Assembly (NCBI GenBank): GCA_002723035.1 | Contig: PBNH01000019.1 | Location: 1-46,868 of the forward strand | From: Rhodobiaceae bacterium | GTDB taxonomy: Bacteria; Pseudomonadota; Alphaproteobacteria; MED-G09 | Reading direction: 5' to 3' | Length of the DNA stretch: 46,868 nucleotides | Part shown: positions 3-2,810 of the stretch, piece by piece | Position numbering within the stretch: the first letter of the stretch is position 1 | How the letters are laid out: each line of letters opens with the position of its first letter | The notes under the pieces: generated by a model | Database searches by the model: none | Told to the model about the DNA's origin: nothing | The model's input: the letters and a program-made list of their open reading frames with translations, nothing else | Position numbers and translations under genes: made by a program

Positions 3-1823
3 GTAGAAATACTTAAAGGCCCTAGTTCAGCTCTATATGGTTCAGATGGATTAGCTGGAGCAATTTCTTATACTACTAAAGATGCATCTGATTTAGCTGA
101 TTTAAATAATCCATTCTTTTCAGCGACGGCTTCATATGATGAAGCAAATGATGGAACAAAATATGGTTTTTTATCGGCCTTCGTTGGGAATAAGATGGAA
201 GGTCTTATTCAGATAACAAGAAGAGATATGAATGAGAGAAATCTTCATGATCAGATAAGCACTAAACCAAATGATATGAATGGTGAATCAAATAGCATCT
301 TATCAAAAATTAAATTTCTATTGACAGAGTCAATTGATCTAACTTTTACAATTGATGTTCAAGAGTGGGAAAGTGAATGGGATCTTCAAACTGAAACAGG
401 TTTCAGTTTCTTTCCAATACCTACTCAAACCTCATCAGCATTAGGTAATGATGAATCCTCAAGACATAGATTTTCTGTTGAACTTGGTTTCAATAATGAG
501 AATATGTTTTTTGATAATGGAAGAATTACAGTTTTTGCTCAAAACACTGAACAAGACCAAGTAACAAATAAATCAAAATTAGTTTTTTCAATGGGCATGA
601 GGGCAAGACCAACCCCATTTTCTGAATATCAAAATTTTCAATTTAACCAAGAAATATTCGGATTTTCTTCTGAGTTTTATAAAGAAATTAGACAATCTTC
701 AGGGATAAAACATCAAATTGTTTATGGATTTGAATATGAGTCAATTGAAGTTGAAAGACCTAGATATAGATATGAAACAAATTTAATTACTAGACAGTTA
801 AATTATAATATTAGCGGTCATACTTATCCCGATAAAACATTTCCTGATACAGAAACAATAAGACAAGGTATTTATTTTTCTGATAGAATTGAAGTCACTC
901 CCAAAGCAAGCATTGTTATAGGTGCACGGTATGACTCTTACGAACTTAAACCATCAGTCGATGAACTATTTAATAGAAGCAATGTAGCCAGAAATGAACT
1001 TTCTTATATAGATGATAGTGCCGTTTCATCCAAATTAGGTTTTATTTATGATCTAAATGATAATATTTCTCTATTTGCTCAATATGCTGAAGGTTTTAGA
1101 AGCCCTGATTATGAGAGTGCAAATATATCATTTACAAATTTTGCATTCCGTTACAGCGTAACGCCTAATCCAGACCTTGATTCTGAAGAAAGTGAAGGAT
1201 ATGAATTGGGTTTAAGAGGAAATAATTCGTTAGGGAACTCAAAAATAAACTGGTCGTTAGTTTATTTTGAAAATGATTACAAAGATTTCATTGAAACTCA
1301 ATTAACTGGAAGGTCACCTCAAGGGATTAGTTTATATAAATATGTAAATCTTAATGACGTTACAATCGATGGTTTTGAATTTGAATTACAAGCCATAATA
1401 AATGACAATTATTCTTTATACTTGGGTCATACAAACACAGAAGGAGAGCAGAATAATGAAGAGCTAATATCAATTGACCCTGATCAAACCATTTTAGGTT
1501 TAAGCTGGATTTCTGATAATGGAGGCTTCAATATTAAAGGAATAGCAAATATTTCTGAAAAAAGTATTGATGGATTAGCTCCTGTTTGCGGAAGAGGAGG
1601 ATGTAATAAATTATTAGAGCTTCCGGGAAGAGTTACTTATGATTTATTCTTCAACTTTAATATCAGTGAAAAAGTATTTGCAAATCTTGCAGTTAGAAAC
1701 CTTACAGATAAAAAATATTGGGACTGGGCATCAGTTAACGGTAAGGCAGAGAATGATCCTGAATTAGATCTTTATGTAAACTCCGGAAGAACAATAAGTG
1801 CCTCAATTAAGTACCTATTTTAA
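3..1823 (+). CDS. TonB-dependent receptor, heme/hemoglobin type (5' truncated by window)
   Basis: The reading frame is already open at base 3, so the start lies upstream; this is the end of the plug plus the whole beta-barrel of an outer-membrane, TonB-energised importer. The visible plug ends with VEILKGPSSALYGSDGLAGA, the usual plug motif. In the barrel, an FRSP segment and NPDLDSEESEGYELGLR (bases 1101-1216) resemble the FRAP/NPDL box of heme receptors, and the tail NLTDKKYWDW...SGRTISASIKYLF matches that family's C-terminus, ending in the terminal aromatic residue of outer-membrane barrels. A cysteine pair (CGRGGC) sits in a predicted surface loop before the last strands. It lies 18 bases upstream of a secreted microprotein and the NiSOD genes on the same strand. 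Heme is the best guess for the ligand; another metal complex is possible. Confidence 0.9.
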   Translation, partial: VEILKGPSSALYGSDGLAGAISYTTKDASDLADLNNPFFSATASYDEANDGTKYGFLSAFVGNKMEGLIQITRRDMNERNLHDQISTKPNDMNGESNSILSKIKFLLTESIDLTFTIDVQEWESEWDLQTETGFSFFPIPTQTSSALGNDESSRHRFSVELGFNNENMFFDNGRITVFAQNTEQDQVTNKSKLVFSMGMRARPTPFSEYQNFQFNQEIFGFSSEFYKEIRQSSGIKHQIVYGFEYESIEVERPRYRYETNLITRQLNYNISGHTYPDKTFPDTETIRQGIYFSDRIEVTPKASIVIGARYDSYELKPSVDELFNRSNVARNELSYIDDSAVSSKLGFIYDLNDNISLFAQYAEGFRSPDYESANISFTNFAFRYSVTPNPDLDSEESEGYELGLRGNNSLGNSKINWSLVYFENDYKDFIETQLTGRSPQGISLYKYVNLNDVTIDGFEFELQAIINDNYSLYLGHTNTEGEQNNEELISIDPDQTILGLSWISDNGGFNIKGIANISEKSIDGLAPVCGRGGCNKLLELPGRVTYDLFFNFNISEKVFANLAVRNLTDKKYWDWASVNGKAENDPELDLYVNSGRTISASIKYLF

Positions 1824-1841: not shown

Positions 1842-2042
1842 ATGAAAATTTATATTTTTACTTTTGTTTCATTATTCTCTGTTAGTGTTATGGCTCATCC
1901 TGGTCATGAGAATACTTTTTTTCATCATGAGGTAAATTCCATATTTTCCTCAATTTTGGCAATTTTATTTTTATATGCTATATTTCTTACCATAAAAAAA
2001 ATAACGAAAAATGCATTTAATAATATTGAAAAGAAAGGATAA
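1842..2042 (+). CDS. Secreted/membrane-anchored His-rich microprotein (HPGHE N-terminus)
   Basis: A 66-residue protein with a clear signal peptide (about residues 1-18, ending VMA) followed by HPGHENTFFHHE, then one hydrophobic segment (about residues 33-51) and a short basic tail. If cleaved after VMA, the mature protein starts with His and carries four histidines within 11 residues, a likely metal-binding end outside the membrane. The HPGH start is also found at the mature N-terminus of HupE/UreJ-type nickel permeases, but the multi-spanning permease body is absent. An AGAAGGA-like ribosome site precedes the ATG. It sits between the TonB receptor and sodN with short gaps, suggesting a role in nickel supply or NiSOD maturation. 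That role is inference; I know of no characterised homologue. Confidence 0.75.
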   Translation: MKIYIFTFVSLFSVSVMAHPGHENTFFHHEVNSIFSSILAILFLYAIFLTIKKITKNAFNNIEKKG

Positions 2043-2047
2043 TTTGT

Positions 2048-2521
2048 ATGTTTAAAGATTTTCAAATAGCTGAGGCACATTGTGATATCCCATGCAAAAT
2101 ATATGATCCTGCAATAGCACAAGTTGCAGCGCTAAGTGTAGTAAGATTAATTGATCTTCTTCATGAAATTGATGATGATGATAATAGCCTTAAATCAATT
2201 GCTCACAGATCTCGTTTAGTTATAGAGAAGGAAGCTCAAGCAAAAATTGTCAAAAATGAAGTTAATATAATTTGGGGTGATTATTTTAAAGCTCCACAAA
2301 TTGAGTCTCATCCTAATATCCATACCCTGGTCCATGAAATAATGATGACAGCATCTAAATGTAAGCAAGATGTAATTAGAGAAAATGCTGAAGAGCTAGT
2401 TAAAAAAGTTAATGAATTTGCTACAATTTTTTGGTCAACTAAAGGAATTGATACTGAAAATGTTGTTTGCCCCTATCCCCCAGAACTTATTGTTTCTAGA
2501 CCAAAATTAGATAGTGTTTAA
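2048..2521 (+). CDS. sodN: Nickel superoxide dismutase precursor
   Basis: NiSOD converts superoxide to oxygen and hydrogen peroxide using one nickel ion. The nickel hook HCDIPCKIY lies at residues 11-19: after removal of a 10-residue leader, His11 becomes His1 and Cys12 and Cys16 become the Cys2 and Cys6 ligands; Tyr19 corresponds to the conserved Tyr9. The remaining 140 or so residues are helical, as expected for the four-helix NiSOD subunit. A lysine (residue 17) replaces the usual glycine after Cys6. An AAAGGA ribosome site precedes the ATG. The stop overlaps the GTG start of the maturation protease by 8 bases, so the two are translationally coupled. Confidence 0.95.
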   Translation: MFKDFQIAEAHCDIPCKIYDPAIAQVAALSVVRLIDLLHEIDDDDNSLKSIAHRSRLVIEKEAQAKIVKNEVNIIWGDYFKAPQIESHPNIHTLVHEIMMTASKCKQDVIRENAEELVKKVNEFATIFWSTKGIDTENVVCPYPPELIVSRPKLDSV

Positions 2522-2810
2522 AATTTACAAAGTTCAAGGTAGTAGCATGTTGCCTACTATAAGGCATAACGATTATCTACTAACTTTTAAAGTTAAAAAA
2601 ATAGAAAAAAAAAGTATAATTGTATCTTTCTTAGACGACAAAAGATTTATAGTAAAAAGAGTCAAAGATATCTCTGAAAATTTTTTTACTCTTTCATCTG
2701 ATAATAAAATGACAGAGTCTGAGTTTTGTAATCAAAAATTTTCTGCGAACAAAATTTTTTATAAGGCTGTTTTAGCATACAGATATCCTTTTAAATTTAA
2801 TCTTTTATAG
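2514..2810 (+). CDS. sodX: NiSOD maturation protease (SodX-type, S24/S26 fold)
   Basis: A 98-residue small serine protease of the signal-peptidase/LexA fold. GSSMLPT (residues 9-15) supplies the nucleophile Ser11 and the lysine in RFIVKRV (Lys48) is the likely general base. It has no membrane anchor, unlike LepB. Homologues next to sodN are known to remove the short NiSOD leader so that the N-terminal histidine can bind nickel. The start is GTG at 2514, overlapping the sodN stop by 8 bases. The 3' end overlaps the convergent ceramidase-like gene by 14 bases. Confidence 0.88.
   Translation: MFKIYKVQGSSMLPTIRHNDYLLTFKVKKIEKKSIIVSFLDDKRFIVKRVKDISENFFTLSSDNKMTESEFCNQKFSANKIFYKAVLAYRYPFKFNLL

Follow-up and report, generated by a model that had tools for sequence, protein, structure and literature searches.

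A single-helix microprotein with a predicted N-terminal histidine, encoded beside nickel superoxide dismutase in marine bacteria, as a candidate nickel-handling protein

The window, meaning the whole stretch of 46,868 nucleotides analysed in this study, derives from a Rhodobiaceae bacterium whose assembly amounts to 0.97 Mb and is 61% complete, and it opens with genes for a TonB-dependent receptor, a 66-residue microprotein, nickel superoxide dismutase (NiSOD, sodN) and a SodX-like peptidase (Table 1). The microprotein gene starts 18 nt past the receptor and ends 5 nt ahead of sodN, with AAAGGA, a Shine-Dalgarno-like sequence for sodN, placed within its last codons, and the end of sodN is overlapped for 8 nt by the sodX-like gene. 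The named records nearest to this sodN are those of PS1-clade alphaproteobacteria.

Table 1. Features of the sodN locus in the window, and related microproteins of urease operons in other genomes.
Feature	Position or locus	Strand	Basis and remarks
TonB-dependent heme-type receptor	3..1823	+	TIGR01785 best match; 5' end off contig
His1 single-TM microprotein CDS, 66 aa	1842..2042	+	ORF, orthologs upstream of sodN, dN/dS
Predicted signal peptide MKIYIFTFVSLFSVSVMA	1842..1895	+	Sequence; cleavage before His; A(-1)-H(+1) junction in sodN-linked relatives
Mature N-terminal segment HPGHENTFFHH, proposed to bind metal in the periplasm	1896..1928	+	Conservation of His
Predicted TM helix, limits approximate, then Lys-rich cytoplasmic tail	1938..2000	+	Hydropathy, AF2 helix 28-65
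sodN, nickel superoxide dismutase	2048..2521	+	PF09055 1.9e-44, TIGR02753 8.4e-44; leader MFKDFQIAEA then HCDIPC
sodX-like S24/S26 peptidase	2514..2810	+	PF00717 7.5e-11; TIGR02754 4.4e-08, under its cut-off
Post-ureG microproteins	L217-L220, L222-L226, L228-L230		60-66 aa, His1, single-TM

The reading frame translates into MKIYIFTFVSLFSVSVMA, the predicted signal peptide, followed by the mature part HPGHENTFFHHEVNSIFSSILAILFLYAIFLTIKKITKNAFNNIEKKG, which carries four histidines among its first 11 residues and continues as one hydrophobic helix, followed by a tail rich in lysine. The secreted, single-helix protein with an HPGHE mature end that had been described in the earlier note was thus recovered, with open reading frame, signal peptide and one transmembrane (TM) helix all found, and with cleavage before the first mature histidine (His1) predicted from sequence and alignment. 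An AlphaFold2 model, for which an alignment of 54 relatives served as input, gave a signal helix (2-16) and a single long helix (28-65), with a mean pLDDT of 77. Moreover, a genome of the same genus (G008) has a full-length, in-frame ortholog at the same location that is 77% identical, with dN of 0.11 and dS of 0.31 (dN/dS about 0.35) and HPGHE unchanged, and the microprotein is therefore under selection. More distant orthologs lie directly 5' of sodN in G012 and G017. Conservation, dN/dS and position rule out a chance reading frame, and we regard the gene as real. No Pfam or NCBIfam family covers the protein, and the models of both collections miss these 48-99 aa microproteins. A second match in the host genome (C18:20643) has an internal stop and was dismissed as chance, and the weak matches in sodN-less PS1 genomes contained stops or fell in unrelated frames.

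The position between a TonB receptor and sodN-sodX, also pointed out in the earlier note, is correct; however, the receptor does not count as evidence for nickel, since it belongs to the heme subfamily TIGR01785. Its full-length ortholog in G008 passes the TIGR01785 cut-off and adjoins hmuTUV/hugZ-like genes, and a nickel TonB receptor was ruled out by this subfamily and these neighbours. Furthermore, this full-length form faces an ABC operon with an ATPase passing the heme-transporter model, together with a HugZ-like gene (L214:10180-15892). Within the host family it was found only in the sodN-positive genomes and in G013, where the contig ends inside the receptor, and it is best read as a heme-uptake gene sharing a variable neighbourhood with NiSOD. 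Its proximity in PS1 might suggest that the microprotein is a heme-related small protein of the adjoining uptake locus, but outside PS1 the neighbours are a TPR-like gene, groEL or sodX, with sodN as the constant element and heme genes not shared, and we consider this explanation extremely unlikely.

The link of the family to NiSOD, for which the earlier note had called for a co-occurrence count, is strong. Among 18 genomes of the host family, the four with sodN (G000, G008, G012 and G017) all have an HPGH microprotein of 61-66 aa directly upstream, and the remaining 14 have neither gene. In 80 sodN loci drawn from genome contigs of diverse marine bacteria, a single-TM microprotein with a mature N-terminal histidine stands directly 5' of sodN at 61, a 3-TM version at three (L086, L091, L103) and a fusion to NiSOD at one (L066), the other 15 having no version of any kind; L010 and the fused L009 are additional 3-TM cases from a genome search. 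The loci belong to SAR86, Porticoccaceae, Alteromonas, Marinomonas, Oceanospirillales-type genera, PS1 and others. In the gammaproteobacterial family f150 (247 genomes), the microprotein adjoins sodN in all 26 genomes with a full-length, cytoplasmic-type sodN at E<1e-40. An automatic detector requiring a signal peptide, [AS]H and a TM helix inside a window upstream of the gene was positive at 85/107 sodN genes versus 11/552 other genes, reading by eye adding four missed cases and removing one 3-TM tail. In addition, microprotein distances track NiSOD distances (Mantel r 0.71, 0/2000 permutations, 54 loci), the sampled sodN loci being phylogenetically non-independent. The microprotein gene overlaps the sodN start in 22 of 54 cases and lies at most 50 nt away in 31 more. 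The association between microprotein and sodN is far above chance.

Some loci depart from this arrangement or extend it. In gammaproteobacterial sodN loci the microprotein is preceded by a conserved, unannotated protein of about 145 aa, TPR-like by eye (...NLADLY...; for example L039:4516-4968 and L142:1679-2107), which had no NCBIfam match. Six sodN operons, in g403 (L142, L143, L136, L145) and g317 (L140, L144), still have their TPR-like gene, microprotein and sodX around a NiSOD reduced to an open reading frame of 40-62 aa that retains the NiSOD leader (e.g. MFYQLIARLDKKLNFATVSAHSDGGKK...); this frame stays open, with its leader, in four species of one genus, and may be either a relic or a repurposed minigene. 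In one Marinomonas locus (L061), the slot is occupied by a paralogue that lacks the N-terminal histidine (QANECASWFTVHN...) and keeps the helix and an H15-like histidine.

Mature His1 is present in 54/54 sodN-linked microproteins, a count that is partly built in because a histidine after a signal-like stretch was itself a condition for entering the set, the other positions being free. Alanine stands at position -1 of the cleavage junction in at least 90% of them, 52/54 have at least two histidines ahead of the TM helix (His1 and at least one more), and the C-terminal tail is net positive in 53/54, with variable sequence. The window microprotein matches this set in its signal peptide, mature His1, one TM helix, basic tail and location directly upstream of sodN. 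In the gammaproteobacterial subset the mature positions H1, G3, H4, D5, H6 and H15 are invariant; against this HxGHDH set the window copy scored 20.2 bits over its full length (6/1320 shuffles equally good) and 5.0 bits with the mature part only (13/1320), making homology to the gammaproteobacterial family no more than suggestive. The pattern of conservation also bears on whether so short a gene, translationally coupled to or overlapping sodN in many species, is a regulatory upstream reading frame, whose exported nascent peptide would sense nickel or export and control sodN translation. Arrest peptides conserve their C-terminus, whereas here the C-terminus is variable and the mature N-terminus invariant; members of the family also occur downstream of ureG in urease operons, and fused forms would be senseless for a leader peptide. 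We judge such a role very unlikely.

A search of f150 with the gammaproteobacterial profile gave 53 matches, of which 26 lie beside sodN, six in sodN operons that have lost the body of NiSOD, and one (G720) in a genome where the TPR-like gene is present and sodN absent. Twelve others are His1 single-TM microproteins located directly 3' of ureG in urease operons, and a similar one (L221:2725-2934) has the gene for a hydrogenase maturation protease (HycI) on one side and hypF-hypD on the other. Two matches are full-length HupE/UreJ proteins, one of which fills the post-ureG slot in L227; the remainder comprises three PCuAC-like proteins, one in an RND cluster and one orphan near an azurin gene. 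Of 1320 shuffled controls, all or nearly all scored lower than the mature parts of the urease and hydrogenase microproteins, so these proteins are related to the sodN set by sequence and not by shape alone. Their presence in urease and hydrogenase clusters, together with the position before sodN, makes the microprotein a probable nickel-enzyme helper. The earlier note would have given up its proposal for a family absent from other sodN loci and occurring mainly beside copper or zinc genes; we found such a gene at most of the sampled sodN loci, and the profile-detected relatives away from sodN and its relics to belong mainly to urease and hydrogenase operons.

In this context, the choice of metal deserves attention. 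A free N-terminal histidine binds Cu2+ well, and the microprotein might handle another metal such as copper or zinc, either to keep the wrong metal out of NiSOD or to scavenge stray ions; the few weak profile matches to PCuAC-like or RND-linked proteins, together with the orphan near azurin, could be read in this sense, as could published His1 domains, which bind both Cu and Ni (PMC12537917). However, the copper-linked matches are long proteins aligned only over an HxGHDH-like stretch, a copper or zinc linkage was rejected because nothing beyond these proteins and the one orphan appeared among the matches away from sodN, and the family is linked to three unrelated nickel enzymes. We regard a different metal as quite unlikely; with the operon pattern as the best evidence, the metal of the sodN, urease and hydrogenase microproteins is very probably nickel.

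HupE/UreJ permeases (PF04955) share with the microprotein a signal peptide and a mature N-terminal histidine, often within HTGH or HPGH in the HupE set, and occur in urease and cobaltochelatase clusters in the same slots, after ureG (L227) and before cbiX (L177, a full-length HupE). They differ in having about six TM helices and an HPxxGxDH motif, whereas the microprotein has one TM helix and no GxDH, and the window protein had no match to PF04955 at E<=1. The 3-TM sodN-linked proteins, which are alphaproteobacterial, are, on profile evidence, short HupE/UreJ relatives and the only versions with a detectable likeness to HupE, the 3-TM part of L009 passing PF04955 (24.9 bits, cut-off 23) and L086 being borderline. 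Comparison of mature parts by hhalign gave P 4e-5 for the 3-TM form versus HupE, P 1.4e-4 for the single-TM gammaproteobacterial form versus the 3-TM form, and P 0.10 for the single-TM form versus HupE. On the last value we do not claim direct HupE homology for the single-TM form; since this form matches the 3-TM form weakly and HupE non-significantly, descent from HupE is no more than possible, and the window protein is not classed as a HupE.

Other small metal-linked proteins were also compared. DUF6732 proteins (PF20506) are likewise short, with a signal peptide, HxGH and one TM helix, but differ in their linked enzyme: in the B12 operons of three alphaproteobacterial genomes (L112-L114) they directly precede a His-rich CbiX-type cobaltochelatase, named by eye from sequence, and their metal is probably cobalt instead of nickel. 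The window protein reached 13.7 bits against PF20506 (cut-off 27), over the signal peptide and HPGH only, and one sodN-linked gammaproteobacterial member (L097) passes the model (28.3 versus 27 bits). CbtB (PF09489), a small cobalt-transporter subunit, has about 60 aa, one TM helix and a His-rich segment; its model had no match in our Pfam scans, and no partner cbtA was seen. The Ang-1/Ang-2 domains of HupE/UreJ-2, with a free N-terminal histidine, bind Ni and Cu in vitro, and their His1, on the periplasmic face of the inner membrane, is proposed to feed the nickel permease (PMC12537917). Unlike the short, foldless end and single helix of the microprotein, they are folded domains of about 180 residues fused to a multi-TM permease. 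In cyanobacteria, SodT, a membrane protein of the UreH family that adjoins sodN-sodX, has been proposed as nickel supplier (PMC4284471); it is a six-TM permease of another family. No description of the microprotein family was found in the open-access literature searched.

The host NiSOD has a 10-aa leader that is not a signal peptide, and the host SodX lacks a signal or TM helix; on these grounds NiSOD is most likely cytoplasmic, with the histidine end of the microprotein facing the periplasm. A periplasmic delivery factor for NiSOD, as the earlier note proposed, is therefore unlikely, and the NiSODs that do carry a Sec signal (L011, L012, L111) are all without the microprotein; a better fit would be that nickel is caught at the membrane on behalf of an enzyme in the cytoplasm. 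Moreover, in L066 the microprotein and NiSOD form one reading frame in which no start codon (ATG, GTG or TTG) separates the helix from HCDIPC, and in L009 a 3-TM HupE-like part is fused to NiSOD with one internal ATG, each fusion being known from one draft sequence in which an error is possible in principle. A cleaved signal peptide followed by one or three helices would place the fused NiSOD in the cytoplasm. These fusions speak for a joint action of microprotein and NiSOD on the two sides of the membrane, and favour capture and transfer across the membrane over periplasmic delivery.

The same fusions, which join the microprotein directly to the NiSOD leader, and the tight coupling with sodN would also be consistent with a membrane tether or assembly platform that holds pro-NiSOD (and SodX) beside a separate nickel importer, where the histidine end merely docks. 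Against this, proteins of this kind are also encoded with urease and hydrogenase, which mature by other routes, and it is the periplasmic histidine end, not the cytoplasmic tail, that is conserved; we hold a tether to be unlikely. As to other nickel routes, PF04955 detected no HupE in the 18 host-family genomes, no NicO or CbiM was found in the 16 sampled, and no obvious HupE/UreH-like gene was seen by eye among the reading frames listed at the microprotein-less sodN loci.

Taken as a whole, we favour, with a probability of about 0.55, the reading that the microprotein is a minimal protein of the inner membrane that handles nickel specifically for the nickel enzyme of its operon. Removal of the signal peptide would expose a free His1 and nearby histidines on the periplasmic side, where they could capture Ni2+; the single helix, either in an oligomer of its own or paired with a permease, would then pass the ion to the cytoplasmic side, where SodX would expose the Ni-hook of NiSOD. 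The microprotein would act as a stripped-down HupE/UreJ, taking the place of HupE/UreJ in nickel operons. Gene, architecture, operon linkage, fusions and the relatives in urease and hydrogenase operons were observed; topology, Ni2+ binding, direction of transfer and the oligomer or partner are inferred. Several observations count against this nickel-handling role: the window copy has no significant HupE match and only a suggestive match to the gammaproteobacterial set, 15/80 sodN loci have no microprotein, the L061 paralogue lacks His1, a single helix would be an unusual transporter, and several genomes keep the microprotein although the NiSOD body is deleted. A bolder version, in which the His1 microproteins are the smallest nickel importers, assembling as homo-oligomers with a histidine Ni2+ entry site, with one version per enzyme (NiSOD, urease, hydrogenase), and either descend from the first helix of HupE/UreJ or resemble it by convergence, is speculative and rather unlikely.

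In brief, the family is real, conserved, unannotated and linked to nickel enzymes. NiSOD is an important superoxide dismutase of marine bacteria. In 16 sampled host-family genomes (G000-G015), with or without sodN, no Fe/Mn-SOD (PF02777) was found. To our knowledge, no dedicated nickel chaperone for NiSOD has been established; the proteins described so far are SodX and, in cyanobacteria, SodT. Unannotated, present in most sampled sodN operons and sometimes fused to NiSOD, the microprotein is a direct candidate for this role, and it may bear on how cells direct nickel to one enzyme when the metal is as scarce as it is in the ocean, a question that is now testable.
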